Source: Closterium sp. NIES-65 (Eukaryota; Streptophyta; Zygnematophyceae; Desmidiales; Closteriaceae). Taken from it: 64,000 nucleotides of DNA. The notes beneath the pieces were generated by a model. That model saw only the letters and a list, made by a program, of their open reading frames with translations, was not told the DNA's origin and ran no database searches. Below are positions 16,142 through 63,826 of the stretch, one piece after another. Location: assembly GCA_948144175.1 (NCBI GenBank), contig CANXME010002453.1, forward strand, positions 738,001-802,000. Reading direction: 5' to 3'. The position numbers and the translations under genes were made by a program. Every line of letters begins with the position of its first letter. Within the stretch, counting starts at the first letter, position 1.

Positions 16142-16690
16142 GGCCCTGACGCGGCCCCTGCCCCGGCTCTCTTGCGGCCCCGCAGCCGGCCCTGACGCGG
16201 CCCCTGCCCCGGCTCTCAAGCGGCCCCGCCGCCGGCTCTGTTGCGGCCCCGCCGCCAGCTCTGTAGCGGCCCCGCCCCGGCTCTCACGCGGCCCCGCCGC
16301 CGGCCCTCACGCGGCCCTCCCGCCGGCTCTGACGCGGCCCCGCCCCGGTTCTCTCACGCGGCCTCGCCGCCCCACCTGCAGCAGTCGGGCAGCAGTGCAG
16401 CCGAGCCGCCCAGGAGCCGAGCCGCCCTGCGCCCGAGCCGCCCTGTCGCCGAGCCGCCCGGGAGCCGAGCCGCCCTGCACCCGAGCCGCCCTGCCGCTGA
16501 GCCGCCCGGGAGCCGTGCCGCCCTGCACCCAAGCCGCCCTGCCGCCGAGCCGCCCGGGAGCCGAGCCGCTGTGCACCCGAGCCGCCCGGTCGCCGAGCCG
16601 CCTTTCTGCAGAGCTGCACGACCTGTCCCGCCTGGTGAGCACAGTCCCACTGTCACTGCGTGCCCTTCCCCTACTGCTTGCACTGCCTAG
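16142..16690 (+). repeat. GC-rich leader of element 2, right part
   Basis: The CGCGGCCCC repeats of 7851-8570 continue here after the CCGCC duplication, then change to GAGCCGCCC-type units up to the start of gag. Frames on either strand are compositional. Confidence 0.8.
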
Positions 16691-16701
16691 CTATCGTCGC
16701 C

Positions 16702-40700: not shown

Positions 40701-42563
40701 AGTAGGGTACCGACTCGTCGAACGTGACGTCCTGGGAGGACAGAACACGGCGAGAGGTGGGGTGGTAGAACTGCCACCCAGGGGCGTCGGGGGGGAACCC
40801 CAGGAAGACGCAGGGAGCAGCGCGAGGGGACAGCTTGTCCGCAGACAAGTCGCGAACAAACGCCCGAGATCCCCAGACCCGGAACGCCGACGCATCGCCA
40901 ACTTTCCTCGTCCACAGCAGGGCTGGGGAGGTCTCCGGCCTGGAGACCCTGGGGTGGAGGTTGATCTGATGCGCCGCGTACCTGACCGCAAACGGCCACA
41001 GAAAATGGGGAGCTGCCGCATGCATCATAGACGTACGAGCGACGTCCATGACCATGCCAATGCGGCGCTCTGCAATCCCATTTTGCTGCGGTGAGTCCGG
41101 AAGCGTGAAGGTCTGACGGATGCCTCGCGCACGACAGTAGGCACGCAGAAGGCCGGAGGAGAACTCTCCGCCTTTGTCCGAGTGCAGACGCAAAACAGGA
41201 AAGTCCGAGCCAAAGCGCTGCCTGAGCTGGAGACGAGCTGCGCGGATCCAGTCGATCAGCACCTCAGTGACATCACCCTTGCTGCGCAAGGGGAAGACTG
41301 TGGTGTAACGCGAGTAGTCGTCAACAACGAGCAGGAAGTAGCGCTCCTGACCCTGTCCACGGACGCGGGCTGGGCCCCACACGTCCATGTGAAGCGTCAG
41401 CAACGGGGCCTCTGTCGGGGGAAACTGGGAGGAGTGAGGGGCAGCACGCTGGCGCCCCTCGACACAGGGGACACAGGCAGGGCTAGGGCCCTGAGGAAGG
41501 GGAGGGAGGGACCGGGGGAGACCTGACACAAGAAGACGGGAGGCCATGCCTCTGAGCCGAAGCAGAGAGGGGTGGCCAAGGCGGTGGTGCCAGAGGAGGG
41601 TCTCGTGAGACAGACGGCGACACGAACAGGGGGCAGACTCAGGACCAGACCTGGACGCTGCAGCAAACACCTGACTAGACGAAGGGATCCGAGGAGAGTC
41701 AGCACCTGGAGGAGAAGCAGTGGTCAGTGTGTACAGGCTCGACCTTGGCTGACGTGTAAACGTAGCCAGGTGGCGACCTGTGCTAGCCTCTGTGCAGTGG
41801 GTCACCCGCTGACGAGCAGGAGTGAACTGGTGGACACCCGCATCCTGTAGGTCAGCACCACTCACCAGGTTCGTAGAGAACAAGGGGAGGTAGAGACCAG
41901 ACAGGGTGCCAGAGGGGGCCGCCGGACACGGGAGGACTGTGGAGAAGCGAGACAGGACAGGACCCCTAGAGGGGTCAGCCAGGGACACCGCAACCGGCCG
42001 ACTAAGCGGCGTGAGAGTGGTGCGGTCCCTAAAGAAGGAGCGAGAGGCCCCAGAGTCCAGGGTGAAGGTGTGAGAGGCTGAAGCCGACACAGTACCTGAG
42101 AGAGCAGACTCACCAGTACCTGAGAGTACAGACGCACTGGCACCTAGAGCAGCAGCCTCACTGGCACCTAGAGCAGCAGCCTCACTGGAACCTAGAGCAG
42201 CAGTACCAATGCCCGGGTCCGGCGGGAAACACCGGTAACAGTCACCCTCATCACTAACAGTCACAGCATACATGGCAGCAAGGATAGCATCAAAGTCAAG
42301 ATCAAAAATAGCTACCCTAGCCCTAGACAGCTCTCCCCAGCGGGGGATCTCAGAGACCTCCGGAAACTGCTGGCGCCAGGCGTCTGTCAGGCGGCCAAAG
42401 CAGCGGCGGGCGGTGTGGGTGCCCCCACACTGCTCACCCGCGCGGTCGCCGGTGCGGAGAACGTAGGTGCAGGGACCAAACGCCCCACCACGCTGACGCT
42501 GCGAGTACCACTCACGGAGCTGCTGAGGGGCGGGGACGTCGCGAGAGCGCTGCTGCTGCTGCG

Positions 42564-42594
<31 letters not shown>

Positions 42595-43632
42595 CTGACC
42601 ACCCCCAGTGCTGCTCCGCTGGGACGAGCCACTCCGACCAACTCCACCACCTCCGCCCCCGCCACCGCCACCCTCGCCCCCGCCGCTCCCACCGCCACCT
42701 CCGCCACCACCTCCGCCACCACCTCCGCCTCCACTGCCGCCACTAGTACCTCCACTCCCGCCACCACCTCCACCGCCACCCCCACTCCCCCCGCCGCCCC
42801 CACCTCCTCCGCCACCGCCCCCGCTAGCTCCACCCGCTCCCTTGCCCCCCTTGCCCCTGCCAGAGCGGCGTCTACCGCTGGGGGCAGACGCCGCACCGAC
42901 CGACTCCAAACCAACGAGGTCGGCCGCAGCAGCAGAGGCGACAGAGGGCAGCAGGGGGGAAGGAGAACACCCCTCAAAGATGGGGGTGCGAGGGTCACCA
43001 CGAGAGGCCCCTACAGCGACGATACTCTTCTCGGCCGCTAGCAGGGACTTCTCAAGGAGGTCGACAGTGAGGGTGGTGGGACAGACAGAGAGAAACTGGT
43101 CCCTAACGACACGAAGGGACTCAGGGAGACGGGTGACTAGGAAGTAGAGAGTGATGTACATGGGAGGAGGGTTTGCGGCGCAGAAGTCAGCAGGAAGCGC
43201 AGCGCGGTAGCGAGTGTCACTAGCGCGGAGGTGGGTAAAGAGGTCAGCGACTGTGGGAAAGGCAGCGAGGTCAGGGAAGAGGTACGGTAGCATGAGGCGG
43301 CTCAGCTTAGCGGAGGAAGGGGAGGAGTAGCGCGCAACTACAGCGTCGTACAAGGCCTGAGCGGTCTTGCACTGACTAAAGTGTGCACGCTCGGAGGAAG
43401 GGAGGTGCCGTCGCACAGCAAGACGTGCAGCAGCATCGCGTGTGGCCCACTTGGAGCGAACAGCGGGGTCAGCATCAGCAGGAGGGGCAGGGACAGCGCC
43501 AGAGACAAAGTCAAAGAGAGAAACCTCATCTATCGCATCGCACAGTAAGTACAGCTGCAGGTCCTCAACCCAGACTGCAAAGTCAATGGCGCGACCCTCA
43601 GCGTCAAAAGCCAGGACACTGGGGGTGGCCAT
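37793..43632 (-). pseudogene. Copia gag-pol polyprotein of element 5, one stop and one frameshift
   Basis: The start is MATPSVLAF at 43632. Gag, a long Gly-rich tract, Gln repeats (about 42545-42590), protease LDSGAS, integrase core (HMDVWGP, LHSDKGGEF, QQNGIAERR) and the repeat linker are open to TAG at 39952-39954, where Gln is expected. The same frame then runs through RT (YVDD) into RNase H. A lost base near 38127 shifts the frame; the C-terminal part ends at 37793. In the integrase, LHSDKGG replaces the LHSDRGG of the other copies. With only two lesions, this is a fairly young copy. Confidence 0.92.
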
Positions 43633-43699
43633 TATAGCAGCTGACAGTCTCACCGGGCAGGAAGAGTCGGGTAGCTCAGCGGCACAGCAACACGGCAGC

Positions 43700-44640
43700 A
43701 CAGCAGCTGCGCCGGCCCAGGAGGAGCAGCAGCACCATAGGAGCAGGAGCTCGGCTCCTCGGACGGCTCAGGCGGCTCGGGCGGCTCGGGCGGCTCGGGC
43801 GGCTCGGGCGGCTCGGGTGACGCGGGGGGGGCTCACGGGCGGCGCGGGCGGCTGCACGGGCGGCTCACGGGCGGCTCGGGCGGCTCACGGGCTGCACGGT
43901 GGGCGGCTGCACGGGCGGCTGTACGGGCGGCTGCACGGGCGGTTGCACGGGCGGTTGCACGGGCGGCGCACGGGCGGCTGCACGGGTGGCGCGTCGGGCT
44001 GCAGCACGGGCGACGGGGCCGCAGTAAGAGAGGCGGCGGGGCCGCAATGGGGGCCGTAGCGGGGCCGCAGCGGGGCCTAAGCGGGGCCGAAGCGGGGCCG
44101 TAGCGGGGCCGACGAGGGGCTGTAGCGGGGCCGTAGCGGGGTCGGCGGGGCCTAGGCGGGGCCGACGGGGCCGACGGGGCCGTAGCGGGGCCGTAGCGGG
44201 GCCATAGTGGGGCCTAGGCGGGGCCGACGAGGCCTAAGCGGGGCCGTAGCGGGGCCTAGGCGGGGCCGACGGGGCCGTAGTGGGGCCTAGGCGGGGCCGA
44301 CGGGGCCTAAGCGAGGCCGTAGCGGGGCCGAGGCGGGGCCGACGGGGCCGTAGCGAGGCCGTAGCGGGGCCGTAGCGGGGCCTAAGCGGGGCCGACGGGG
44401 CCTAAGCGGGGCCGACGGGGCCGTAGCGAAGCCGACGCGGGGCCGTGGCGGGGCCTTAGTGGGGCCGACGGGGCCTAAGCGGGGCCGTAGCAAGGCCTAA
44501 GAGGGGCCGTAGTGGGGCCGACGGGGTAAAGCGGGGCCGCGACCAAAGGGCGGCGGGGCCGCGACTAAAGGGCGACGGGATCGCGTAGGTAAGGGCGACA
44601 CGAAGGGTCGCTAAAAAAAAAACGCGCGCCTCGGGGCGCG
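43700..44640 (-). repeat. GC-rich leader repeats of element 5
   Basis: On the plus strand, GGGGCCGTAGCGGGGCC and GGGGCCTAAGC units are repeated dozens of times at 44040-44530; GGCTGCACGGGCGG units lie at 43840-43990. There is no coding potential. Confidence 0.82.
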
Positions 44641-44691
44641 CTTCGGTGGGCCCTATGAACAGTCCCTAGGAGGGGACCTGCTCTGATTCCA

Positions 44692-44823
44692 TGAGAAGAA
44701 TTGAACGAGAATGAAATGACTATGAACGAAGTGAGTACAAATAGGAAACCCTAGTTGGGTTGTACCCCCTATGGGATACCCCACTATAGCCTACACAAGC
44801 AAGTAAGCTATAATGTTCTGACA
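44692..44823 (-). repeat. 5' LTR of element 5
   Basis: Read on the minus strand it begins TGTCAGAACATTATAGC and ends CAATTCTTCTCA. The same subfamily as elements 1 and 6, but with ACCCAACTAGGG where element 6 has ACACAATTAGGG. Confidence 0.92.
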
Positions 44824-45027
44824 GGGGGGAGTGGGGGTGGCGGTGGAGGTGGTGGCGGGGGTGGAGGTACTAGTGGCGGCAGTGGAGGCGGAGGTGGCGG
44901 CGGAGGTGGCGGTGGGAGCGGCGGGGGCGAGGGTGGCGGTGGCGGCGGTGGCGGCGGAGGCGGGGGTGGCGGTGGTGGAGGTGGTCGGAGTGGCTCGTCC
45001 CAGCGGAGCAGCACTGGGGGTGGTCAG

Positions 45028-45062
<35 letters not shown>

Positions 45063-48000
45063 CTCCCGCGACGTCCCCGCCCCTCAGCAGCTCCGTGAGT
45101 GGTACTCGCAGCGTCAGCGTGGTGGGGCGTTCGGTCCCTGCACCTACGTCCTTCGCACCGGCGACCGCGCGAGTGAGCAGTGTGGGGGCACCCACACCGC
45201 CCGGCGCTGCTTTGGCCGCCTGACCGACGCTTGGCGCCAGCAGTTTCCGGAGGCCTCTGAGATCCCCCGCTGGGGAGAGCTGTCTAGGGCTGGTGTAGCT
45301 ATCTTTGATCTTGACTTTGATGCTATCCTTGCTGCCATGTATGCTGTGACTGTTAGTGATGAGGGTGACTGTTACCGGTGTTTCCCGCCCGACCCGGGCA
45401 TTGGTACTGCTGCGCTAGGTGCCAGTGAGGCTGCTGCTCTAGGTGCCAGTGCGTCTGTGCTCTCAGGTACTGGTGAGTCTCCCCTCTCAGGTACTAGTGA
45501 GTCTGCACTCTCAGGTACTGTGTCGGCTTCGGCCTCTCACACCTTCACCCTTGACTCTGGGGCGTCTCGCTCCTTCTTTCGAGACCGCACCACTCTCACG
45601 CCGCTTAGTCGGCCGGTTGCGGTGTCCCTGGCTGACCCCTCTGGGGGTCCTGTCCTGTCTCGTTTCTCCACAGTCCTCCCGTGTCCGGAGGCTCCCTCTG
45701 GCACCCTGTCTGGTCTCTACCTCCCCTCGTTCTCTACGAATCTGGTGAGTGGTGCTGACCTACAGGATGCGGGTGTCCACCAGTTCACTCCTGCTCGTCA
45801 GCGGGTGACACACTGCACAGAGGCTCGCACAGGTCGCCACCTGGCTACGTTTACACGTCAGCCAGGGTCGAGCCTGTACACACTGACCACTGCTTCTCCT
45901 CCAGGTGCTGAGTCTGGTAGAGTCCCTTCGTCTGGACAGGTGTTTGCTGCGGCGTCCAGGTCTGGTCCTGAGTCTGCCCCCTGTTCGTATCGCCGTCTGT
46001 CTCACAAGACCCTCCTCTGGCACCACCGCCTTGGCCACCCCTCTCTGCTTCGGCTCAGAGGTATGGCCTCCCGTCTTCTTGTGTCTGGTCTCCCCCGGTC
46101 CCTCCCTCCCCTTCCTCAGGGCCCTGGCCCTGCCTGTGTTCCCTGTGTCGAGGGGCGCCAGCGTGCTGCCCCTCACTCCTCCCAGTTTCCTCCGACAGAG
46201 GCCCCGCTACTCGCGTTACACCACAGTCTTCCCCTTGCGCAGCAAGGGTGATGTCACTGAGGTGCTGATCGGCTGGATCCGCGCAGCTCGTCTCCAGCTC
46301 AGGCAGAGCTTTGGCTCGGACCTTCCTGTTTTACGTCTGCACTCGGACAGAGGCGGAGAGTTCTCCTCCGGCCTTCTGCGTGCCTACTGTCGTGCGCGAG
46401 GCATCCGTCAGACCTTCACGCTTCCGGACTCACCGCAGCAAAATGGGATTGCAGAGCGCCGCATTGGCATGGTCATGGACGTCGCTCGTACGTCCATGAT
46501 GCATGCGGCAGCCCCCCCATTTTCTGTGGCCGTTTGCGGTCAGGTACGCGGCGCCGAAGATCAACCTCCACCCCAGGGTCTCCAGGCCGGAGACCTCCCC
46601 AGCCCTACTATGGACGGGGAAGGTTGGCGATGCGTCGGCGTTCCGGGTCTGGGGATATCGGGCGTTTGTCCGCGACTTGGCTGCGGACAAGCTGTCCCCT
46701 CGCGTTTCTCCCTGCGTCTTCCTGGGGTTCCCCCCCGACGCCCCTGGGTGGCAGTTCTACCACCCCACCTCTCGCCGTGTTCTGTCCTCCCAGGACGTCA
46801 CGTTCGACGAGTCGGTGCCCTACTACCGTCTCTTCCCCTACCGCACTCCGTCCCTCCCCCCGCCCCCGCTCTTTCATGTCCCAGGTCCCCCCCCGGTAGA
46901 CCCCCTCCCCCCTCAGGGTCCTGCCCCTTCAGGTGTGTCCCAGGTAGACGCAGTCGAGCCTGTTGAGGTCACTAGTGACTCTGGTGCTGCGGGTGGTGGT
47001 GAGCCTGGGGGTGCTACGTCTGGGGGTGCTGAGCCTGGGGGTGCTGACCCTGGGGGTGCTGAGTCTGGGGGTGGTGGGTCTGGGGGTGCTGAGCCTGGGG
47101 GTGCTGAGCCTGGGGGTGCTGAGCCTGGGGGTGCTGAGCCTGGGGGTGCTACGCCTGGAGGTGCCTTGCCTGGGGGTGCTGGGTCTGGGGGTGCTGAGCC
47201 TGGAGGCTCTCTCGGTACTTCGTCTCGCCGGGAGCCACTCTCTCCACAGGAGCTGCGCGAGTGGTTTGCCCGGCGCTGGAGCTGTACTGCTGGTGCTGGA
47301 GGTTCGTCGGCTACTGAGGGTGCTGTCGTCGCGGGTCCCGGAGGTGCTCGTCCTGGGAGTACTGGAGCTGCTGAACCTGCGAGGGTGTTGGCGCTGAGAC
47401 TACCACTGGCGGTCCGGCTGGCGGTGCTTCTGGTGCTGCTGGAGGTTCTGTAGCTGCTGGAGGTGCTATTGGAGGTGCTGCTGGCGCGGGTACTCCTGCT
47501 GGGGGTACTGGTACAGTCCCTGCTGTTTCTGGCGTCGCCACGCGGCCCCGACCGTACTTCGTTCCACTCCTGCAGCAGTTTCTTGGTCTTACACCTTCTC
47601 CTGGTCCTCCTCCTCATCCCTTAGAGGGTCCACAGCCTGTCCAGTCACAGTCACAGCTACAGCCTGCCTCCCCTTTGCCTGCTCCTTCTCCCTACGCTGG
47701 TCCTACGAGAGGTCTTACTGAGCGTCGTGAGCCTGCGTCTCGTCCTGCGTCGCTTGTTCGTACTGCTCGCGTTAGTGGTCGCGATTCGCGTCAGCGTCCT
47801 CCTCCTGTCCCTGGCACGCACCGGATGTCTCTGCGTCCGTCCACTGCTCCTCTGCGTGCCCCTTTGCCTTCTCCTCCTGCGTCCTCTCTTCCTGCTCTCG
47901 CCGACCCTGCGTCAGACTCCCTTCGTGCTGCCAGTCCTACTGTCATGCGTCTCCTTGCTACTGCCGTCACTGACCCTTCTTTCGAGTCCACTGCTGCGTC

Positions 48001-49810
48001 TGCCCTTGTCACTGAGCTCGTCGACTTTGCTGCTCGCTGTCGTCTAGACTACGCTGCTAGTCTTGTCACTGAGTCTGAGTCTGCCTGTCCTCCGTCCGTC
48101 GGGGGTGAGTGTGCCCTTGGCACGGACGTCCTTGAGGACAGGCAGGAGGAGTTCGAGTGCCTGGCAGCCGCTTCACCTCATCTCGTGTCCGTACTGCTCA
48201 CCCCTGAGGGAGACCCGGATGCACTTGACATCCCGACTCCGCGCTCTTACGCGGAGGCGATAGAGGGTCCCTACTCCTCTCAGTGGCAGGCAGCTATGGA
48301 TGCTGAGATGGCTTCCTGGAAGTCCACAGGCACCTACGTTGACGCTGTCCCCCCTCCTGGGGTGAACATCGTCAGTGGCATGTGGATCTTCAGGGTGAAG
48401 CGGCCGCCTGGTTCTCCGCCTGTCTTCAAGGCGCGTTACGTGGCTCGTGGTTTCAGTCAGGGGCAGGGAGTTGACTACTTTCAGACCTTCTCCCCGACCC
48501 CGAAGATGACCACTCTTCGGGTACTACTGCACGTCGCTGCTCACCGTGACTACGAGCTGCAATCTCTCGACTTCAGCACTGCTTTCTTGCAGGGCAGCCT
48601 GCACGAGGAGATCTGGCTGCGGCGCCCTCCTGGCTTCACTGGGTCTTTCCCTCCTGGTACCCAGTGGAGTCTCCGGCGTCCAGTCTACGGTCTCCGCCAG
48701 GCACCGCGTGAGTGGCACGACACACTGAGGACTACGCTGGCGGCACTTGGGTTTGCTCCTTCTACTGCTGACCCGTCGTTGTTTCTACGCACCGACACTT
48801 CTCTGCCGCCGTTCTACATCCTCGTGTACGTCGACGACTTGGTCTTTGCCACTGCTGACACTGCTGGACTCGCCTACGTGAAGTCCGAGCTGCAGAAGAG
48901 ACACACGTGCACTGACCTGGGTGAGCTGCGCAGCTACCTTGGCTTGCAGATCACCCGGGACAGAGCACGCCGCACCATCACCCTGACTCAGTCACACATG
49001 GTGCAGCAGGTCCTTCAGCGCTTCGGCTTCACGTACTCCTCGCCTCAGGCCACTCCTCTGCCTACTCGCCACTCGCTCTCAGCTCTGTCTTCGGATGAGT
49101 CCGTAGAGTCGAGTGGCCCGTATCCAGAGCTTGTCGGCTGCCTCATGTACCTGATGACCTGCACACGACCTGACCTTGCATACCCTCTTAGCATTCTTGC
49201 ACGCTATGTTGCTCCTGGGAGACACCGACCAGAGCACATGGCTGCAGTGAAGAGGGTGTTGCGCTACTTGTGCAGTACGTCGGGCATGGGGCTAGTGCTT
49301 GGAGGGCGCAGTCCAGTGGTCCTCACTGGGCACGCAGACGCTTCTTGGGCTGACGACCAGGCTACGCAGCGGTCGTCACAGGGTTACACTTTCAGTCATG
49401 GTTCCGGCTTTGTTTCGTGGCGGGCTACCCGCTCGTCTTCTGTTCTTGGCTCCAGTTGTGAGGCTGAGATCTACGCCGGGGCTATGGCTGCACAGGAGCT
49501 TCGCTGGCTCACCTACCTGCTGACCGACCTTGGAGAGCCGCCTCGTTCTCCTCCAGTCTTGTACTTAGACAACAAGGCCATGCTGGCCTTGTGTCGAGAG
49601 CAGCGACTGGAGCACAGGACAAAGCACATTGCTCTCCGCTACTTTCTTGCGCGTGAGCTGCAACAGCGTGGACAGTTGTGGCTTACGTACGTGGCCTCTG
49701 AGGCCAACACTGCTGATGTCTTCACGAAGGCACTTGCGCCTTGTGATCATCAGCGCCTCTGCACTCAGTTGGGCCTTGTGCATGTCTTGCCTCACTTGCT
49801 TACTTCTTAA
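44824..49810 (+). pseudogene. Copia gag-pol polyprotein of element 6, 5'-truncated and frameshifted
   Basis: The sequence starts inside the Gly-rich gag tract. The first frame covers the Cys/His motif and protease (LDSGAS) to about 46206. There, compared with element 1, 86 bp are missing (equivalent to 3837-3922), which removes the first catalytic Asp of the integrase and shifts the frame. An extra C in a run at about 46512-46518 shifts it again, and a lost base near 47375 a third time. From there RT (YVDD) and RNase H are open to 49810, ending LPHLLTS. An open frame entering from the antisense LTR of element 5 (from 44755) is a chance fusion, not a start. Confidence 0.9.
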
Positions 49811-50021
49811 CCTTGCTTGTACTGTCACATTTATATACTCTTGCTCTTGCTTGCTTAGCCTTTTGTATACCTATATGTGATCTTGCATGTGAACTGGCCT
49901 TCTGGCCTTTGAACTTGTGCTCGGAATGTGTGGTGACTTTGTGATCCACCCTGAGCTTTGCCTTGCTTTGCTTGACTGGTCTTGTGACCCCTTGTTCTCC
50001 CCCACTTTGCCTATGGGGGTG

Positions 50022-50129
50022 TGTCAGAACATTATAGCTTACTTACTTGTGTAGGCTATAGTGGGGTATCCCATAGGGGGTACAACACAATTAGGGTTTC
50101 CTATTTGTACTCACTTCGTTCATAGTCAT
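50022..50129 (+). repeat. 3' LTR of element 6, truncated
   Basis: It begins TGTCAGAACATTATAGC after the purine tract CCTATGGGGGTG and matches 36910-37041 up to CATAGTCAT, then breaks off. The sequence after the break belongs to the EGF-repeat gene region. Confidence 0.9.
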
Positions 50130-50142
50130 GGCCACAGAGAGC

Positions 50143-50216
50143 CTGTTCTTGTTGGCTCGTGTTCTTGTTGGCTCGTGTTCTTGTTGGCTCGTGTTCTTGT
50201 TGGCTCGTGTTCTTGT
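50143..50216 (+). repeat. 16-bp minisatellite
   Basis: GTTCTTGTTGGCTCGT is repeated four to five times directly after the truncated LTR, in what looks like an intron of the left EGF gene. Confidence 0.8.
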
Positions 50217-50345: not shown

Positions 50346-53300
50346 TGGGGAGTGTTTTCGTGGCACATGCAGCAAGGATGGGTCAGGGGTTACATCATGT
50401 CCCCTGGGATGTATAAAGGGCTACAGGTTACTTACCAACGAAATTGGTGTTGGTGAGGCGAGGCCCTCTGAAACCCAAAAGCAGGCCTGCAGCGTTTTGT
50501 TTTTGTCTCCTCGTTTTCCTGTCCCCAAAATCTATCTTGATATATCAATTCTCATGTTGCTAGCATGCAGTGTTTTGTTGCTGTTGGCCCGTTTTGCAAC
50601 GCACCTTTTCTCGTGTCGCTTGCATCACAGAATATTGTCCGAGGGACTGTGGGGCCAACGCTGTTTGCGGCAACCAGGGGAGCGGAGAATTCTGTTTTTG
50701 TAACAAGGGCTTCGAAATGCTTCCCGATACCACTTGTGCTGGTGAGGCGCGGTGCTCTGAAATGAAGAAGCAAGCTTGCTTGGTTTAGTGAAGGCGCGGT
50801 GACCCTAAACCCTTACCCTAAACTTTTTTTCTCTCTCCCTTGTTTTGCCATTCCCAAAATCCATCTCAACAGATCGTTTTTCATGTTTCTCACTTGCAGT
50901 GTTTCGTTGTTGTTGACTCATCGTCCTATTCTCAAACTTGTCTCAACTCATCACACCCTTTCCCATTGCGCTTGGGTCACAGACAAATGCGCTTCGATGA
51001 AGTGTGGGGCCAACGCCACGTGCAGTATTAATAAGGTAGGGAATGCAACCTGTTCCTGTGACAATGGATTTGAAATGCTTGCCGATGGCACTTGTGCTGG
51101 TGAGGCATGGCATGTCTGCTTTGAAGCCCAACCTTGTTCTTGTTCCCTTGTTATCCCGTTCACATAATTGATCTCAACACATCGTTTCTCATGTTGCTCT
51201 CTTGCGCTGTTTTGTTGCTGCTGACTCGTTTTTCTCAAACATGTCTCAACTCAACACGCGTTTTCTCATGGCACTTGCGTGACAGACACATGCGCTAAGT
51301 GCGGGGCCAACGCCAAGTGCAGCAAGGATGGGTCAGGGGTTGCATCCTGCTCCTGTAACGATGGATTCGACATGCTTGCCAATGGCACTTGTTCTGGTAA
51401 CTCATGGTGCTTCGAAACCCAAAAGCAGGCCTGCAGTGTTTTGTTCTTGTTGCCTCAGTTCTCCTGTCCAAAATCTATCTCAGCACAACGTTCGCATGTT
51501 GCTTGATTGCATTCTTTTTGTTGCTGTTGACTCGTTTTCATTCCTCAATGCAACAGATCATTTCTTGTGACGCTTGCATCAGAAACAATTGCTCTCCTGT
51601 TTTCAAAGGTGCTCCTGTGTTCAAAGGTGATTTTGTGTTCATACCGATTCCCATCCTATCTTCACACCAATCCTTCCTTGGCTGCACACGTCACATCTGC
51701 TGTGCTTATGTTTCAGATGTTGTCTGCTTGGCTTTGGGTTGCTCGCCGGGTGGGACTTGTCTGAAGCAGATGGGCACGAACGTGCGCTACTGCAAATAGG
51801 GTGAGCAGCCATCATGGGAGGGGGCATGTGACTTTTGAGTTGACACCTGAGTCACCGGGTGGGACTTGTCTGAAGCAGATGGGCATGAATGTGCGCTACT
51901 ACAAATGGGGTGAGCAGCCATCATGGGAGGGGGCATGTGCTACCATGGTGTGGCTGGCCTGTCACGGACTGGTGTTAATGTCATGCTTTTTTCCACGGCA
52001 TTGAGTCTTACTACTTGTCATGCTGGGCAGCAACGCTTCACCTTTCAGTTTTTTCCCATACTTGCCCATCTTCAACGAGTCTATTGTGACTCTGCACTGC
52101 CCTACCACACTCTGCTCTGAGTCGACTCAATGCACGACTCATTTTGAGTCAACCCAAAACACCTTTCAGGTTTTCCCATCCTTGCGCATCTTCAACGAAC
52201 CTATTGTAACTCTGCACTGCCCTATCGCACTCTCTATTGCCCTATCACAGGTGCAAGACCACACTTGCTCGTGACAAAACAAACCTTGTCCCCAACCTAA
52301 CCCAGTGTGTCTTTTTACTGCCCTGCCGCACCTTCTCTTGCCTATGCTGCCACTTTTAGACTCGCCGTGTGGCAATTGCCCCATGGGAGCCACCTGCAAG
52401 ACCACACCTTCCAAGGCAGGCAACCCGATTCCATACTGCGTGTGTCCTGACGGCTATGGCATGACCCAAGATGCCTGCATTGAAGGTGTGACACCACTTC
52501 CCTGAGACATGGTGCCTTAATTCACGTGCCTTACTGCATCATGTGGTTTACTCCATGTGCCTTACTCGATGTGCCTTACTGCATGCGCCTCACTGCATGT
52601 ATCCCACTGCATATGTAAACTAAACATGCGCCTCACAAGTGGGCCTGCATGGGGCGGCTTGAGTGCACTGCCACCTTTGCTGCAGTGGTTGCATCCGGGC
52701 AGCATCCACAGTTGACTGGTTCACATTCCTACCGAAGGCCAGCCATCCAGAGGCATCCAGAGGTATCCAGAGGCATCCAGAGGCATCCAGAAGCATCCAG
52801 AGGCATCCAGAGGCATCCAGAGGCATCCAGAGGCATCCAGAGGCATCCAGAGGCATCCAGAAGCATCCAGAGGCATCCAGAAGCATCCACAGGCATCCAG
52901 AGGCATCCAGAGGCATCCAGAGGCATCCAGAGGCATCCAGAGGCATCCAGAAGCATCCAGAGGCATCCAGAGGCATCCAGAGGCATCCAGAAGCATCCAG
53001 AGGCATCCAGAGGCATCCAGAGGCATCCAGAGGCATCCAGAGGCATCCAGAGGCATCCAGAGACATCCAGAGTCAGCGCATTCACAACCCTCTCCTTACT
53101 TAGCGACTACTCCACATGTGCTCCACTTCCACCTTGTATTCCCAGGCGGCAAGTCTACAGTGGGAGCAGCGAGCATAACGCTCATCCAGGATCCCAAGGC
53201 TCTGGACAAGGCATCCCGGCCGTACACCGTGCGCGCCAACCTGGATGGGTGCACGGATCTTCCCAAGGAGGTGGCTGGAAACTACAAGACACGATACGGC

Positions 53301-53692
53301 GTGTACAATATGAATGGCACGCTGCGGTGCAACACTTTCCGGCTCTGGGCGGGCAGCAACAGTTCTGGGAAACTTGTGTCTGCGGGGCCTCTTTCAACCG
53401 TTTCTTACTGTACAGTCTTCACCAAGTGAGTCACCTAAGTCATTCTGGAAAGACAACAATGCCCCAGATGTTCTGTTGACGTATCCCTCACCTGCGTTCC
53501 TCCTTTCCCACTGTTTGCTTTCTGTGCACCAATCGCCATTCACTTCTTTCCCTCCTCTTTCCCACTGTTTCATCCCCTCCCCTTTTTACTCTTCCTTTCC
53601 CTCCTTTTCACTCCCTTCCCTCCCCTTCTGGTTCACTGCTAAGCAGTGGTGAGATTAGTGGCAATATCAGTTCCATCTGGTGCGGGAATTAG
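50346..53692 (+). pseudogene. EGF-repeat protein gene, left paralogue: 5'-truncated and broken
   Basis: The exons parallel the 3' half of the right-hand gene. Exon 50346-50452 is a poor EGF relic with a disturbed phase. EGF-like exons are 50631-50741, 50983-51099 and 51286-51396 (CGANA...CSC types, phase 1-1). Exon 51717-51800 (84 bp) encodes CSPGGTC but has TAG where the paralogue has TGG. Exon 52360-52485 encodes CPMGATC...CVCPDGYGM. The small exon equivalent to 63166-63204 is decayed near 52635, its donor lost. Exon 53146-53425 (280 bp, the same length as its partner) encodes the C-terminal domain, and 53647-53692 the end. No signal-peptide exon exists; the left edge is the truncated LTR of element 6. 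If transcribed, the product would stop after three EGF modules. Confidence 0.75.
52747..53070 (+). repeat. 10-bp minisatellite (GGCATCCAGA)n
   Basis: About 32 copies with occasional AAGCATCCAG variants, in the intron before the C-terminal exon of the left EGF gene. Because the unit is 10 bp, long frames appear on both strands; these are not genes. Confidence 0.93.
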
Positions 53693-54977: not shown

Positions 54978-57900
54978 ATGGCCTCCAATCCCGCCGCGCT
55001 TCTTCTGCTCCTCGTCCTTGCCGTCATCTGCGGTGAGCTTCGAGTCGCCATGTCCACTCTCTCCTGCTTCTTCCTCGTCCTTGCCGTTATCTGCGGAAAG
55101 CCATTCCATCCTTGTCTAACTTCGGCTCGATTCCGTTTTCTCTCATGTTGAGAGGCGCGAAAATCTGCCCCTCCTAGCACCCTTCCGCTCCCTCCCGCTC
55201 ACCTCCCACCCTAAACCGCCCCTCTGCATCCAGCGATCGTCACGGCTCACGCGGCGGCAGGCGAACGCGCGGATCGCCTTACTAATATCGCGCGCGCGCG
55301 AGTGCGCGGCGTCGGCGGCGCAGCCGATGCTATGTCTGCCAGAAGCCTCAGAATCGAAAGCACAGTGGGAAGCAGAAACGGGAGCACGCGGGTGGGGGTG
55401 GGCGTGGGGATTGGCAGCGGCGGCGGGGCGGTGGAGGCGAGCGTGGCGGTGGGCACGCAGATCACGGTGTCGGGCGTCAGCCTCAACGTCACCTTCGACG
55501 CCCTCCGCTGCTTCAGCTTTCCCAAGGCCGCGCTCAGGGCTCTCAAGGCGGGGCGGGACGTGCAGGTGTGGTGGAACGGCCTTGCGGGCGGCAACAAAGG
55601 CCGCAGTAGCAAGGGCGGTAGCAAGGGCGGAGGGGGTTCGCGAGAGAAGGAGGCAGGCACGGATGGGCAGGCGGGGGCGGCGTGCAAGCAACTCAAGTTC
55701 TTTGCCAACCCCGCCTGCAAGGGCAAGGCGCTGGATGAGGTGCTCAAGCCGCAATACGCCGGCCTGCGCAGATTCTTCAACGTGCCCAGGTGGGTCGTGG
55801 GGCCACGTGGATCGTTGGGGCACGTGGGTCATGGGGGCACGTGGGTTAGGGGGCACGTGGGTCATGGGGGCACGTGGGTCAGAGCCACGTGGATGGGCGC
55901 AGGTGGATGAGGGCAGGCGGGTGATGGCTGTTGGCTGGTGGGTGATTGGGGCTAGTGGGTGATTGGGGCTGGTGGGTGATTGGGGCTGGTGGGTGATTGG
56001 GGCTGGTGGGTGATTGGGGCTAGTGGGTGATTGGGGCTGGTGGGTGATTGGGGCTGGTGGGTGATTGGGGCTAGTGGGTGATTGGGGCTGGTGGGTGATT
56101 GGGGCTGGTGGGTGATTGGGGCTGGTGGGTGATTGGGGCTGGTGGGTGATTGGGGCTGGTGGGTGATTGGGGCTGGTGGGTGATTGGGGCTGGTGGGTGA
56201 TTGGGGCTGGTGGGTGATTGGGGCTGGTGGGTGATTGGGGCTAGTGGGTGATTGGGGCTGGTGGGTGATTGGGGCTGGTGGGTGAGTGTTCTCTACCAAT
56301 GCCACTGTCAAGCCTCGGGTTTTGCCAGCCCAACGTTTTTCTAACATCCTCTCTGATAGTGTTCCTAATGCCTGATCTAGACGTGTTTCGCAACGTCTGA
56401 TCTGAATGTGCTCCTGACGTCCTTGCAGCACAAAGACGGTCTCTCGCTGGACTTCTGTTTCCTGCAAGTCTGGTGCGTGCCACTGTGCCTCTTCGCCTCC
56501 TAGTCTCCTTGTCACCTTGCCTCCTTGCCTCCTTGTCACCTTGCTTCCTTGCCTCCTTTTCCACCATCTCACCTTGCCACCTTGCCGCACACAGCATCTG
56601 CAAACGAGTGTTTTGCGTTAATAACTCCATGCCCATGGTTTTACCTTCCTCGCTGCACGCATCCCTGCTGCTGCTGCTCCCCATGACATGGCAGACGTCA
56701 CCTGCCAGCACGCCACGTGTCCGAGCAACTCCACGTGCATGCCAACGAGTGACAGCAAGGGCGTCACCTGTGCATGCAACCCGGGCTTTGCTGCAAGGAA
56801 TGGCACTTGCCATGGTATGCTGCTAGAGATACATCGTCTCTCCTTTTGCCTTCTGAGTCGACTCAAAAGTCACCTGTGCATGCAATTCGGGCTTTGTTGC
56901 AAGGAATGGCACTTGCCAAGGTACTTTTGAGGCGCCTCAAAAGTGCAACCCGGGCTTTGCTGCGTTGAATGGCACCTGCCAATCCAAGGTACGCTGCTGA
57001 GATACCTCGTGTGGCAAAATGTGCACAAGAGTGTTGGAGACGAAGAACCTGTCTGAACCCGGAAGCGAACCGGAGACCTCCAGTTTGTGAGACTGGCGTG
57101 ATAACCAACCATCCAGACACGTTGTGAGGGAAAGAGGGAAGAATAATAGGTGGGGGAATCAGGGAGGGAGGGAGGGACGGACGGAGCGAGCGAGGGGCGA
57201 AGGGAGGGAGGGAGGGGCGAAGGGAGGGAGGGAGGGAGGGAGGGAGGGAGGGAGGGAGGGAGGGAGGGAGGGAGGGAGGGAGGGAGGGAGGGAGGGAGGG
57301 AGGGAGGGACGGAGGGAGGGAGGGAGGGAGGGACGGAGGGAGGGACGGAGGGAGCGAGCGAGGGACGAAGGGAGGGAGGGAGGGATGAAGGGAGGGAGGG
57401 AGGGAGGGAGGGAGGGAGGGAGGGAGGGAGGGAGGGAGGGAGGGAGGGAGGGACGGAGGGAGGGAGGGAGGGAGGGAGGGACGGAGGGAGGGACGGAGGG
57501 AGCGAGCGAGGGACGAAGGGAGGGAGGGAGGGAGGGAGGGAGGGAGGGAGGGAGGGAGGGAGGGAGGGAGGGAGGGAGGGAGGGAGGGAGGGAGGGAGGG
57601 AGGGAGGGAGTGAGGGAGTGAGGGAGTGAGGGAGTGAGGGAGTGAGGGAGTGAGGGAGTGAGGGAGTGAGGGAGTGAGGGAGTGAGGGAGTGAGGGAGTG
57701 AGGGAGTGAGGGAGTGAGGGAGTGAGGGAGTGAGGGAGTGAGGGAGTGAGGGAGTGAGGGAGTGAGGGAGTGAGGGAGTGAGGGAGTGAGGGAGTGAGGG
57801 AGTGAGGGAGTGAGGGAGTGAGGGAGTGAGGGAGTGAGGGAGTGAGGGAGTGAGGGAGTGAGGGAGTGAGGGAGTGAGGGAGTGAGGGAGTGAGGGAGTG

Positions 57901-60900
57901 AGGGAGTGAGGGAGTGAGGGAGTGAGGGAGTGAGGGAGTGAGGGAGTGAGGGAGTGAGGGAGTGAGGGAGTGAGGGAGTGAGGGAGGGAGGGAGGGAGGG
58001 AGGGAGGGAGGGAGGGAGGGAGGGAGTTATTAGTTGCGCAATGCTTTGCAAATCTGGTATAGGAGTTATTAGTTGCGCAATTTCGTTTGTTCTAACCCCC
58101 ATGGACGTTGACCCTTTTCATCATTTACAGTGCCAACTGGTAAGAAACATCTAGACAGCCATACCTGTGTGTTACAGGGGGGGTGAGACGCACTATCGAT
58201 CGCACGATATCTTATTACCCAACTCCATTTGTGATATCTTTGTATAGGTCAACACACAGGCTTCTGACGCTCAGCATAATTCTCATCGTCTCATTGTCAA
58301 GATTTGGTAATGACTGTCTTTTTTATATTACAATATCCTACCACCTGCCCGGGTTGCTTCTTTGCAGACAATTGTGATGCCGTGAAGTGTGGGCCTGGCG
58401 GCAACTGCGAGAGGGATGCAAACGGAGATCCATCCTGTAGTTGCAGCGCTGGCTTCACGTCGTCTTCTGACAAGCTCTCTTGCATTGGTGAGTTGGAGGA
58501 GTGCAACACAGAGGGCGTGCGCTGCGTTTCAAATCCAGTCCTTGAAACTTGGCCTTTCTAGAACTTGATTTTGTGGCGAATGTTATTGAATTGCGTGCAT
58601 ACTTGATGTTGTGACCCTTGATCCTTCCATTTTCATTGTCGTTTTCTTCTGCAGACAACTGTGATGCGGTGAAGTGTGGGCCTGGCGGCAACTGCACGAG
58701 GGATGCGAGCGGAGATCCATCCTGTAGTTGCAGCGCTGGCTTCACGCCGTCTTCTGACATGCTCTCTTGCATTGGTGAGTTGGAGGAGTGCAACACGGAT
58801 GACGTAACTTTTGCGTATCGACCCCAATCCTTAAAACTTTCCTCCCTTCAGCTCATATTTCATGCAAGACTTTCTGAGTTGAAAGTGTATTCAACTCTTT
58901 GAACCTTGACAAGCTCTCTTGCACTGGTGAGTTGGAGGAGTGCAAAACAGAGAGAGAGGGTGCCTTGCATTTATAATCCAGTCATATAAACCTGACTACT
59001 TTTATGATATTACAACCTTCTACCACCTGTCCGGGTTGCTTCTTTGCAGACAACTGTGATGCCGTGAAGTGTGGGCCTGGCGGCAACTGCGAGAGGGATG
59101 CGAACGGAGATCCATCCTGTAGTTGCAGCGCTGGCTTCATGCCATCTTCTGACAAGCTCTCTTGCATTGGTGAGTTGGAGGAGTGCAAGACAAGAAAAGA
59201 GGGTGCCTTGCATTTCAAACCCAGTCATATTAACCTCGCTTATTTTCAGGTCATGGGCTTTCCAGATATTAGTGAATGCCTTCAAATATTTGACCCTTGA
59301 TTGTCAAGATTTGGTAATGACTGTGTTTGTGATATCACAATATCCTACCATCTGCGTGGGTTGCTTCTTTGCAGACAATTGTGATGCCGTGAAGTGTGGG
59401 CCTGGCGGCAACTGCACGAGGGATGCGAGCGGAGATCCATCCTGTAGTTGCAGCGCTGGCTTCACGCCGTCTTCTGACAAGCTCTCTTGCATTGGTGAGT
59501 TGGAGGAGTGCAACACAGAGAGAGAGGGTGCATTGCATATATAATCCAATCATATAAATCTGACTACTTTGATGATATTACAATCTCCTACCACGTGTCT
59601 GGGTTGCTTCTTTGCAGACAATTGTGATGCCGTGAAGTGTGGGCCTGGCGGCAACTGCGAGAGGGATGCGAATGGAGATCCATCTTGTAGTTGCAGCGCT
59701 GGCTTCACGCTGTCTTCTGACAAGCTCTCTTGCATTGGTGAGTTGGAGGAGTGCAAGACAAGAAAAGAGGGTGCTTTGCATTTGAAACCCAGTCATATTA
59801 ACCTCGTTTATTTTCAGGTCATGGGTTTTCCAGATGTTACTGAATTTCTTCCAATCTTTGACCCTTGATTGTCAAGATTTTGTGATGGCTGTGTTTTTAT
59901 ATCACAATATCCTACCATTTGTCTGGGTTGCTTCTCTGCAGACAACTGTGATGCCGTGAATTGTGGGCCTGGCGGCAATTGCGAGAGGGATGCGAACGGA
60001 GATCCATCCTGTAGTTGCAGCGCTGGCTTCACACCATCTTCTGACAAGCTCTCTTGCATTGGTGAGTTGGAGGAGTGCAAGACAAGAAAAGAGGGTGCCT
60101 TGCATTTCAAACCCAGTCATATTAACCTCGCTTATTTTCAGGTCATGGGCTTTCCAGATGTTAGTGAATGCCTTCAAATATTTGACCCTTGATTGTCAAG
60201 ATCTGGTAATGACTGTGTTTGTGATATCACAATATCCTACCATCTGCGTGGGTTGCTTCTTTGCAGACAATTGTGATGCCGTGAAGTGTGGGCCTGGCGG
60301 CAACTGCATGAGGGATGCGAGCGGAGATCCATCCTGTAGTTGCAGCGCTGGCTTCACGCCGTCTTCTGACAAGCTCTCTTGCATTGGTGAGTTGGAGGAG
60401 TGCAACACAGAGAGAGAGGGTGCATTGCATATATAATCCAATCATATAAATCTGACTACTTTGATGATATTACAATCTCCTACCACGTGTCTGGGTTGCT
60501 TCTTTGCAGACAATTGTGATGCCGTGAAGTGTGGGCCTGGCGGCAACTGCGAGAGGGATGCGAATGGAGATCCAACTTGTAGTTGCAGCGCTGGCTTCAC
60601 GCTGTCTTCTGACAAGCTCTCTTGCATTGGTGAGTTGGAGGAGTGCAAGACAAGAAAAGAGGGTGCTTTGCATTTGAAACCCAGTCATATTAACCTCGTT
60701 TATTTTCAGGTCATGGGTTTTCCAGATGTTACTGAATTTCTTCCAATCTTTGACCCTTGATTGTCAAGATTTTGTGATGGCTGTGTTTTTTATATCACAA
60801 CATCCTACCATTTGTCTGGGTTGCTTCTCTGCAGACAACTGTGATGCCGTGAATTGTGGGCCTGGCGGCAATTGCGAGAGGGATGCGAACGGAGATCCAT

Positions 60901-63826
60901 TCTGTAGTTGCAGCGCTGGCTTCACGCCGTCTTCTGACAAGCTCTCTTGCATTGGTGAGTTGGTGGAGTGCAACTTGGCAACTGTAAAACTTGGCCTCCC
61001 TACAACTTGATTTCCTTACGATTGTTACTAAATTGCATGCACACTTGACTTTGTAACCCTTGATTGTCCATATCTGGGTATTGAAGTTTTTTTTTATAAT
61101 ATGATATTCTTGAAATTGCATGTGTTTCCTTTTCTGCAGACAACTGTGATGCCGTGAAGTGTGGGCCTGGCGGCAACTGCACGAGGGATGCGAACGGAGA
61201 TCCATCCTGTATTTGCAGCGCTGGCTTCATGCCGTCTTCTGACAAGCTCTCTTGCATTGGTGAGTTGAAGATTGTGCAACACAGGGGGCGTGCCTTGCGT
61301 CTCAAACAATGTTCTTGAATCTTGTCCCTCCCACAACTCAATTTCCTTGCAAGTGATACCCATATGAGACATTTTTTAACTTGTGACCTTGTATTGTTAA
61401 GGTTCGAGTATTATAATTTTTGTGATATCATAATATCCTTCCATCTGCATTGTTTTTGTATTCTGCAGACAACTGTGATGGAGTGAAGTGTGGGCCTGGC
61501 GGCAACTGCACGAGGGATGCAGAAGGAAATCCATCCTGTAGTTGCAACACAGGCTTCAAGCAGTCTTCTGACAAGCTTTCTTGCATTGGTGAGTTTGAGA
61601 GTGTGCAACACAGAGGGCGTGTGATGTGTCGTCTTGCGTGTCAAAACCAGTCCTTGAAACTTGGCCTCCCTCAGCCCAAAATTTTTGCAAGAGTTACTGA
61701 ATTGCGTGCATACTTGACTTTGTCGCTCGGTTGTCAAAATCAGGGTATTCGTTGCATCATGGTATTCGTCCATTTGCATGGGTCTCTTTTTTCTGCAGAC
61801 AACTGTGATGCGGTGAAATGTGGGCCTGGTGGCAACTGCACGAGGGATGCGAACGGAAATCCATCCTGTAGTTGCAGCACTGGCTTTAAGCTGTCTTTTG
61901 ACAAGCTCTCTTGCATTGGTGAGTCAGAGGGGTGCAACACAGAGGGCATGCCTTGCTTTTGAAACTCAGTCCTTCAAATGGCTCTTGTGATCAAAGGTGA
62001 TCCTGTGTTTAGGTGAGCTCTTGTGTTGAGAGGTACTCCTGTGCTGCAATTCTTTTCGCTTCCATTCTCCTCGTAGCCTTTTCTGTCGTATCTTCTTATC
62101 TCTCCTTCCTTCTCTGCACTCGTCACACACCTGCTATACTCCCATCTCTGTGTTTCAGATTCTAAATGCTTTGCTCTAGGCTGCTCGCCGGGTGGGACTT
62201 GTGCAAAGGATAACAGCACTGGATTGCTCTATTGTAAATGGGGTAAGTAGCACTGGACGAGGCATGTGCTAGTATGGTGTGACGCACATGGGCCTGTTGT
62301 TTTTGAGGCGCCTCAAGAACGACCTCGACGCACATGGGCCTGTCATGGGACGGTGTGATTTCATGCTGATTTACCACTGCATTGATACTTACTGCTTGCC
62401 TTTGTTTTAAAAACAAAGGCGCTTCCTATTCTTGCCCACCTTTAATGAAACTGCCCTGCTGCACCCTCTCTTGCCTCTACTGCGTTTCTCAGACACGCCA
62501 TGTGGCAGGTGCCCCACTGGAGCCACCTGCAATACCACACTCGAAATAATGGAAAATTCCCTTGCTCCGTACTGCGTGTGTCCTGCTGGCTATGGCATGA
62601 CTCAAGACGCTTGCATCAAAGGTGAGGTACCACTACCCTGAGGCTGGATGAAACACAGTGCTGTACTGCATGTGCCTTTCTGCATGTGCCATGTGCCTTA
62701 CTGCATGTGCCTTACTGCATGTCCCTTACTGCATGTACCTTACTGCATGTCCCTTACTGCATGTACCTTACTGCATGTGCCATGTGCCTTACTGCATGTG
62801 CCTTATTGCATGTGCCTTATTGCATGTGCCTTACTGCATGTGCCCTACTGCATGTGAATTACTGCATGTGAATTACTGCATGTGAATTACTGCATGTGAA
62901 TTACTGCATGTGAATTACTGCATGTGAATTACTGCATGTGAATTACTGCATGTGAATTACTGCATGTGAATTACTGCATGTGAATTACTGCATGTGAATT
63001 ACTGCATGTGAATTACTGCATGTGAATTACTGCATGTGAATTACTGCATGTGAATTACTGCATGTGAATTACTGCATGTGCTTTACTGCATGTGAATTAC
63101 TGCATGTGAATTACTGCATGTGAGTTACTGCATGTGAATTACTGCATGTGAATTACTGCATGTAGTCTGCCGCCAACTGGATGGCCCATACGTGCGCCTG
63201 ACAGGTGGGCCTGCATTCGGCGGCATGAGTGTGCTACAGTGGTTCCAGCAATACAGCATCCGCACTTCACTGCTTCACATTTTTGCTAGAGATCGGGCAA
63301 CCAGGCCAAGCGCATGAACAGTCCACTTTTTTGTGCCCCGCTTGCCGCTTCCACCACACATTATCCAGGTGGCGTGTCTACGGTGGGAGCAGCTAGTATG
63401 ACGTTCGATAGCGACCGAGTAAGAGACGGTGGATCCCGCCCGTACACTGTGCGTGCCAACATCAATACATGCACGCCAGTTCCCAAGGAGAGGGTTGGCA
63501 ACTTCACGAGACGATACTTAGTGTTCAATACAAACGACGGCACGCCGCTCTTCAGGTCACGCGAATACTGGACCGGCAACAACTGTACGGGGGAGCTTCT
63601 GCTTGACAGGGGAATGCCAATCACTCCTTTATTTGCACAACTCATCAGGTGAGTGGCTTCTTACCGTACTTTGTGTGCACCAATCGCCTTTCACGTCTTT
63701 CCCTCCCCTTTTCACTCTTGCTTTCCTTCCTTCCACTCCCCTCCCTCCCTTTCTGACTTCGTCATTACCAGAGCATCCCAAAACGATTTCTGGCTCAGGA
63801 TGAGATCCATGAGGTTCACGACGTAG
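54978..63826 (+). CDS. Secreted EGF-repeat protein, 21 exons, 924 aa, thirteen 120-bp EGF exons
   Basis: Exons: 54978-55032, 55261-55789, 56429-56472, 56695-56814, the array of twelve 120-bp exons at 58368-61918, 62159-62242, 62493-62621, 63166-63204, 63369-63648 and 63772-63826 (TAG). All have GT-AG introns, and the 2775 bp stay in phase. The protein opens with a signal peptide (MASNPAALLLLLVLAVICG), then about 190 residues with a Gly/Ser/Lys-rich insert and paired Cys (CKQLKFF...CKG...VSC). Thirteen EGF-like modules follow (C-x4-C-x5-C-x9-C-x-C-x12-C), with no clear calcium-binding signature. Then come CSPGGTC and CPTGATC modules and a C-terminal domain (STVGAAS, RPYTVRAN). No membrane segment was seen after the signal peptide, so it is probably secreted. 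Partners and function are unknown. Start and exon 3 are the least certain parts. Confidence 0.8.
55010..55098 (+). repeat. Duplicated signal-peptide segment
   Basis: CTCGTCCTTGCCGTCATCTGCGG (first 20 bases CTCGTCCTTGCCGTCATCTG) at 55010-55034 recurs with one change at 55075-55098. The second copy follows another ATG (55051) and would encode a second signal-peptide-like stretch (MSTLSCFFLVLAVICG), but it lacks a GT donor, so it is probably a vestigial first exon inside intron 1. Confidence 0.65.
55931..56284 (+). repeat. 17-bp minisatellite in intron 2 of the EGF gene
   Basis: GGGTGATTGGGGCTGGT is repeated about 20 times, with CTAGT variants every few units. CACGTGGGTCATGGGGG-like repeats precede it at 55795-55900. 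Minus-strand frames through it are by-products. Confidence 0.93.
56866..56990 (+). pseudogene. Two EGF-exon fragments inside intron 4
   Basis: Two pieces repeat the second half of exon 56695-56814 (CACCTGTGCATGCAA...GGAATGGCACTTGCC and CAACCCGGGCTTTGCTGC...GGCACCTGCC). They lack an acceptor and the first cysteines, so they are relics of module duplication. The palindrome CTTTTGAGGCGCCTCAAAAG lies between them (56924-56943). Confidence 0.7.
57050..57118 (-). tRNA. tRNA-Val(CAC)-like gene with shortened D arm, probably a pseudogene
   Basis: The minus strand has an acceptor stem (GTCTGGA pairing with TTCAGAC, one G-T pair), an anticodon arm CCAGT-CTCACAA-ACTGG with anticodon CAC, and a T arm CCGG-TTCGCTT-CCGG. 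From memory, plant tRNA-Val(CAC) has about five more bases in the D region; here only TGGTTGGTTATCAC remains. The B-box consensus GGTTCGAATCC is changed to GGTTCGCTTCC. Both internal promoter boxes are thus damaged, and a pseudogene is most likely. It lies antisense in intron 4 of the EGF gene. Confidence 0.75.
57160..58022 (+). repeat. Purine-only microsatellite: (GGGA)n then (GGGAGTGA)n
   Basis: From 57160 to about 57600 the sequence is GGGA repeats with CGGA and CGAAGGGA interruptions. From about 57604 to 57985 an 8-bp unit AGTGAGGG repeats about 48 times, then GGGA returns to 58022. The plus strand is almost free of pyrimidines over about 850 bp. The long Pro-Ser-Leu frame on the other strand (to 58102) is a by-product. 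Confidence 0.97.
58023..58082 (+). repeat. Short direct repeat next to the microsatellite
   Basis: GAGTTATTAGTTGCGCAAT occurs twice, about 40 bp apart, directly after the purine tract. Confidence 0.8.
58368..61918 (+). repeat. Array of twelve 120-bp EGF-like exons
   Basis: Exons 58368-58487, 58655-58774, 59050-59169, 59375-59494, 59618-59737, 59942-60061, 60267-60386, 60510-60629, 60835-60954, 61140-61259, 61469-61588 and 61799-61918 are each exactly 120 bp. They begin after TGCAG with ACAA(T/C)TGTGATG and end ATTG before GTGAGT. All are phase 1-1, so any can be gained or lost without shifting the frame. Exons three apart in the middle (59050, 59942, 60835) are about 892 bp apart, and their introns match as well. 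A remnant of another exon end lies at 58906-58926. Confidence 0.93.
62650..63165 (+). repeat. 14-bp minisatellite in the EGF gene
   Basis: Starting as TGCCTTACTGCATG-type units, it becomes a regular TGAATTACTGCATG array of about 22 copies and runs right up to the acceptor of the 39-bp exon at 63166. The acceptor TGCATGTAG seems to derive from the repeat unit itself. Confidence 0.92.

Follow-up and report, generated by a model that had tools for sequence, protein, structure and literature searches.

The window, that is, the whole stretch of 64,000 nucleotides of Closterium sp. NIES-65 DNA that was analysed, harbors at 54978-63826 (+ strand) a gene for which we built a model of 21 exons by reading the window and splicing it by consensus. 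All 20 introns start with GT and end with AG, and the exons join into a single open frame of 2802 nt, coding for 933 amino acids and ending with a TAG stop codon at 63824-63826. The position and the number of introns are those given in the preliminary description of this DNA; the protein length given there, 924 residues, fell short by nine. A tandem paralogue upstream, within the approximate limits 50620-53480 (+ strand), comprises three EGF exons, a C-terminal-type EGF module and a C-terminal domain. It has an in-frame TAG (51797-51799) in the equivalent of exon 17 and contains a tandem repeat with a 10-bp unit (52744-53072). An N-terminal domain was found nowhere in the window except in the main gene. 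The paralogue is directly preceded by a copia-type element, which has a reverse transcriptase frame. Domains of copia-type integrase or reverse transcriptase are also encoded by five other long open frames, which are distributed over both strands (2100-4979, 9771-14951, 16660-22605, 28713-31391 and 39955-43701). The GC content at these five frames is 53-69%, compared with 46-61% in the last 10 kb of the window.

All exons of the main gene are on the + strand. Exon 1 (54978-55032) contains the start codon and a predicted hydrophobic signal sequence, the most hydrophobic stretch of the protein. Its GT donor is kept in two paralogues, C2155:541k (100% identity) and C841:552k (85%). Exon 2 (55234-55789) encodes a low-complexity stretch and an N-terminal Cys-containing domain, assigned from the model, the paralogues, a sequence alignment (A2) and dN/dS values. 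The domain ends in exon 3 (56429-56472), whose aligned ends in two paralogues carry AG and GT. Exon 4 (56695-56814), identified in the model and by Pfam and present as the same exon in paralogues, encodes a first, divergent EGF module. Exons 5-16 (58368-61918) encode twelve tandem EGF modules, defined by the model and by comparison of the modules with each other; they start at 58368, 58655, 59050, 59375, 59618, 59942, 60267, 60510, 60835, 61140, 61469 and 61799. Exon 17 (62159-62242) is a shortened EGF-like exon of 84 bp with four cysteines, its AG and GT being kept in C2155:541k, while exon 18 (62493-62621; 129 bp) encodes a six-cysteine EGF module of the C-terminal type that is common to many family members. 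A 39-bp linker exon (exon 19, 63166-63204) is followed by the C-terminal domain in exon 20 (63369-63648), supported by genome matches and a second alignment (A1), and by exon 21 (63772-63826) with the end of this domain and the stop codon.

Exon 4 and the twelve tandem exons are exactly 120 bp long, in agreement with the thirteen such exons proposed earlier. Module exons had also been described as identical in length and phase. This holds for the phase, as each of the 15 EGF-type exons (exons 4-18) is entered and left in phase 1, but not for the length, because of the two EGF-like exons of 84 and 129 bp. The gene thus has one module per symmetrical phase 1-1 exon, the arrangement that defines exon-shuffled proteins. 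With each unit beginning and ending in phase 1, modules may be gained or lost as a whole with the frame intact. Three introns contain long tandem repeats: intron 2 a repeat with a 17-bp unit (55933-56285), intron 4 a AGGGAGGG-type repeat with an 8-bp unit (57161-58026, + strand) and intron 18 a repeat with a 14-bp unit (62690-63163).

The exon boundaries are kept in paralogue C2155:541k, in which exons 1-5, 16-18 and 20 were tested: AG and GT are found at the aligned ends (for exon 1, GT only). Exon 21 aligns there only partially and has no match in the C841 paralogue. Exon 19 is doubtful, because its counterpart in paralogue C2155:547k is an aligned stretch without an AG acceptor and because its acceptor in the window directly adjoins the end of the 14-bp repeat. 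However, exon 19 is also in phase 1-1, and therefore the frame survives its omission.

The 19-residue Kyte-Doolittle mean of the predicted protein is highest at the N-terminus (2.82) and does not exceed 1.22 beyond residue 40; by this measure there is no second hydrophobic segment in the 933-residue model. Judged by hydropathy, the protein is likely secreted, as had been suggested on first reading. A receptor kinase or other membrane protein was rejected given the lack of a second hydrophobic segment and of a Pfam kinase match in the three pieces scanned. The protein contains 96 cysteines and 13 N-X-S/T sequons, five of which are N-C-T within the tandem modules.

Assignment of the modules to the EGF superfamily is supported by six cysteines, a C-x-C motif and GF or GY before the last cysteine. 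A PROSITE-type EGF_2 pattern fits 14 stretches of the protein. The Pfam scan covered three protein pieces and left out tandem modules 4-11. In the piece consisting of exon 4 and the first three tandem modules, the families cEGF, EGF, FOLN and EGF_MSP1_1 exceed their curated cut-offs (57.1 bits for cEGF, with a cut-off of 26.6), while in the piece consisting of the last tandem module and the C-terminal part cEGF reaches 19.8 bits and stays below the cut-off. When the N-terminal part was searched together with the first modules against PDB sequences, the EGF matches were only weak, the best being factor VII (E 0.019). The calcium-binding EGF consensus, defined by an acidic N-terminal motif together with the hydroxylation-type C-x-[DN]-x4-[FY]-x-C-x-C, has no match in the 933 residues, which rules out the calcium-binding class by this consensus. 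As the consensus is missing from the 933 residues, rigidity of the type that fibrillin and Notch have is unsupported for the algal protein.

Several features argue for coding use of the EGF exons. We compared 16 module pairs with introns of similar length. In the nine older pairs, those with module 10 or 11, identity is 85.0-96.7% for exons and 58.2-67.8% for the following introns; recent pairs, such as modules 4 and 7, have 99-100% identity in exon and intron alike. The pooled dN/dS of the twelve modules is 0.39, calculated over 66 non-independent pairs. Between paralogues, five comparisons of the N-terminal domain gave dN/dS of 0.30-0.46, except for one with a value of 1.37, which contains only ten changes. 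For the C-terminal domain, three of seven comparisons gave 0.34, 0.64 and 0.66, the other four being saturated. Overall, seven of the eight comparisons of the two domains that yielded a value fall within 0.30-0.66.

The twelve tandem exons are equal in length because they descend by duplication. The informative cases are the divergent module at 56695 and the modules of paralogues, which keep the phase and mostly the length. We scanned 77 loci and the window for EGF exons of 84-174 bp, allowing all three entry phases. These 78 sequences gave 65 candidates, 61 of them in phase 1-1 and 42 of these 61 exactly 120 bp long; the same sequences reversed gave none. The candidates are distinct at the DNA level, with alternative boundaries unpruned, and the loci are relatives, many of them overlapping.

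We then turned to the whole assembly (874,075,685 bases), where many loci have a near-identical second copy that enters into all counts. At E <=10, matches number 53 for the C-terminal domain (34 at E <=0.001) and 74 for the N-terminal domain (24 at E <=0.001). For the tandem-type EGF module we considered the 150 scored ones of 462 candidates (E <=0.0134), 128 of which are at E <=0.001, and for the C-terminal-type EGF 137 matches at E <=0.1. The 150 tandem-type modules form 44 clusters, of which 26 contain at least two modules, and the window array of 12 modules is the largest among the clusters listed. In 23 of the 40 N-domain matches examined, corresponding to 18 places, a C-terminal domain follows on the same strand within 16 kb. 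Both domain matches are at E <=0.001 in 11 of these places; in five others the C-domain match has E >0.001 and in two the N-domain match has E of about 4. A cluster of tandem-type modules lies between the two domains at 12 of the 18 places, and a C-terminal-type EGF at the other six. The order N-terminal domain, EGF, C-terminal domain is therefore a repeated design, and the gene is a member of a large family. The earlier reading was too narrow in this respect, the gene being one of many related ones. Animal contamination is unlikely, as module matches form 44 clusters over many contigs and the window lies among copia-type elements.

Some places in the assembly deserve separate mention. The paralogue at C841:557411-557902 (L038, L020, L044) has two C-terminal-type domains in tandem in one open frame of 203 residues. 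Eight EGF module matches at C1154:615037-617280 have a very regular spacing of 302-304 bp. Many weak matches to the C-terminal-type EGF (E 0.0004-0.06) are spread over about 300-380 kb at C1154:727971-1023901 and C676:876135-1259997, which suggests that these stretches are tandem gene clusters. On seven contigs, rbcL is accompanied by a matK_N match; matK occurs in streptophyte plastids, and the modest score (60 bits) points to an alga more than to a land plant. Of two CpRLP1 target sites published for NIES-68, target A has no match in the assembly, while the 27 sites that fit target B with two mismatches are unconvincing, 26 of them being a single repeated site on two contigs.

Contig C1929 carries a second copy of the locus, which outside repeats aligns over long stretches with 98.6-99.6% identity. 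In NIES-65, studied as haploid-phase material, duplication affects over half of the shared ortholog groups (PMC10407611), and such widespread duplication would explain the paired contigs. The C1929 gene has 19 exons and an open frame of 853 amino acids with ten tandem modules, compared with 12 in the window. Its modules correspond, in order, to modules 1, 2 and 5-12 of the window; over 1200 exon bases, the two sets differ at 4. Modules 3 and 4 are therefore the simplest missing pair, and in the simplest alignment a stretch of 568 bp (59050-59617, + strand; breakpoints approximate) comprising these modules with their introns is absent from the C1929 copy. The match is not unique, since C1929 modules 5 and 6 equal modules 4 and 5 of the window and are one base off its modules 7 and 8. 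A block of three modules seems to have been duplicated recently in the window, giving units 3-5 and 6-8. The modules had been called exchangeable before, and the second copy, with two whole modules fewer and the frame intact, bears this out.

It might be argued that 12 versus 10 modules reflects an error of repeat assembly, as tandem units up to 99-100% identical are hard to assemble. However, the units (243-395 bp) and the arrays (3551 and 2982 bp) are short compared with long reads, if such reads were used, and long reads are mentioned for the Closterium assemblies in PMC10407611. The ordered correspondence of the ten C1929 modules, with so few differences, likewise speaks against an artefact, which we regard as very unlikely. 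We inferred six sets of near-identical copies from matching spacing, and this set is the only one whose copies clearly differ in module number; the others agree (3/3, 6/6, 5/5/5, 3/3 and 6/6/6 modules). A further relative of the 6/6/6 set, C841:485k, has eight modules.

The two copies of the locus also align across the copia-type element in front of the upstream paralogue (44564-50185, 99.0% identity; 44564 is the end of the fetched stretch and not the left end of the element). Because both copies align through it, the element predates their split. Some family members are decaying, given that exon 2 of C2155:541k is apparently frameshifted and the upstream paralogue has an in-frame stop. The main gene itself could then be unexpressed or decaying, its open frame being a leftover of a repeat-rich locus. 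Such a fate would fit the stop codon in the neighbor, the mobile element present in both copies, the long intronic repeats, the frameshifted relative and the doubtful exon 19. It is harder to reconcile with the window gene and the C1929 copy both being open from start to stop, and with constraint visible among modules as well as among paralogues. On balance, we find decay decidedly improbable.

The flanking domains were initially described as unfamiliar, and they still are: profile searches against Pfam, NCBIfam and PDB returned no convincing relative for either of them. In the C-terminal domain, C35, P39 and C73 are invariant in alignment A1. The best Pfam match of its window sequence is Phage_spike_2 (18.0 bits, cut-off 25), a family matched at E <=1 by four of 18 members, at best with 1.4e-05, and the domain profile reaches tail spikes in PDB at E 0.049. 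We treated this phage-spike kinship as chance, the window sequence scoring below the cut-off, in spite of the matches of some members and of those in PDB. As to a bacterial origin of this domain, a genome_contigs scan produced 77 pattern stretches and no relative, a single-protein query of this kind finding close relatives only. The window sequence of the N-terminal domain has no Pfam match. Its relatives match Harpin (E 0.11) and CFAP143 (E 0.33), in one of 12 members each, and these matches were treated as chance as well. The domain has no match in NCBIfam and none in PDB at E <=10. Compared with each other by hhalign as candidates for a single duplicated domain, the two terminal domains gave E 0.022 and a probability of 2.2% over 27 columns. 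Structure predictions for both have low confidence (mean pLDDT 42.8 and 37.0). Binding by the flanking domains is thus a guess, as there is no relative in these libraries and the predicted structures are unusable.

One such guess is defence, in which a diversified repertoire of secreted EGF proteins would bind bacterial or fungal surfaces. The large clustered family would suit this role, and so would the fast divergence of the C-terminal domain, with dN/dS of 0.64-0.66 against the upstream and C2155:547k paralogues. Combinations of EGF with lectin domains are described for chlorophytes and/or bryophytes (PMC6362431). On the other hand, the terminal domains match no Pfam lectin family, and dN/dS above 1 is confined to a single comparison with ten changes. 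Defence therefore appears distinctly unlikely to us.

Taken together, we favor a different interpretation, to which we give a probability of roughly 0.55: the gene would encode a secreted EGF rod of the wall, mucilage or cell surface, with two capping domains, and would evolve by unequal recombination. Its product would be a probably N-glycosylated, disulphide-rich rod of 13 to 15 EGF-type modules between two Cys-containing domains. The rod would most likely serve as an extracellular spacer that separates two putative binding domains in the cell wall, in mucilage or at the cell surface, where these may bind wall polymers or a partner protein. It may work in the wall or in adhesion, both of which the preliminary description had considered. 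The length of the array would change when exon-intron units recombine unequally.

Long rows of EGF modules are typical of animal extracellular proteins, represented by those of the fibrillin, Notch and fibulin type. The algal protein shares with them tandem six-cysteine modules, one per symmetrical phase 1-1 exon, and probably also a secreted or extracellular nature. It differs in having no calcium-binding consensus, in its unrelated flanking domains and in its streptophyte host; even the closest solved EGF by sequence, that of factor VII, is a weak match. In plants, wall-associated kinases (WAK) expose extracellular EGF modules near the wall, and vacuolar sorting receptors provide another green-lineage case of EGF besides receptor kinases. 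In contrast to WAK, the algal model has neither a second hydrophobic segment nor a kinase match in the pieces scanned, and its array is far longer. Wall-associated kinases are also named in PMC5371791, which in addition describes ExAD glycosyltransferases with two EGF-like domains. The likeness to ExAD consists in green-lineage EGF-like modules linked to wall glycoproteins; according to the same text, ExAD differs as a Golgi enzyme with exostosin-type domains and two modules only. The EGF-lectin combinations (PMC6362431) share with the algal protein the joining of EGF to other domains in the green lineage, but the algal protein matched no lectin family. ExAD and the EGF-lectin proteins also make the statement in the preliminary description that green-lineage EGF modules are mostly known from receptor kinases too narrow. 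Neither a review on the extracellular matrix of green algae (PMC10762512) nor the paper describing the Zygnema genomes (PMC11096116) uses the term EGF in its main text, and we found no description of this EGF-array family among titles and abstract openings in the literature.

The proposed surface location raises the question of mating. Surface glycoproteins at the pairing site could take part in mating or in the recognition of mating groups, variants in array length or in the terminal domains helping cells to recognize partners. In Closterium, gamete release requires unknown molecules of the conjugation papillae, to which Concanavalin A binds, blocking the release (PMC4942458). The 13 N-glycosylation sequons and an array that differs between the two copies would be in line with a mating role, as would the report, in PMC10407611, that about 30% of genes vary in copy number between Closterium strains able to mate. 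Yet nothing found here ties the gene to the Con A-binding papilla molecules or to the mating locus, and only one of the six near-identical copy sets clearly varies in module number. We consequently hold a mating role to be unlikely.

This streptophyte alga possesses a large family of EGF-array genes that are built in the animal style and have terminal domains without a convincing relative in the libraries searched. Since two near-identical copies differ by two modules, the locus offers a direct view of array growth and shrinkage. The family also provides a gene set for studying how cells of a lineage near the land plants build walls, adhere or mate. A bolder idea combines a large secreted EGF-rod repertoire, two new terminal domains and recombination that continually alters module number, all used in cell-cell or mating-group recognition. 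We think that this idea is probably wrong, with odds well against it. If it were true, a recognition repertoire of EGF rods at the algal surface would be a counterpart to animal adhesion proteins in a unicellular relative of land plants.
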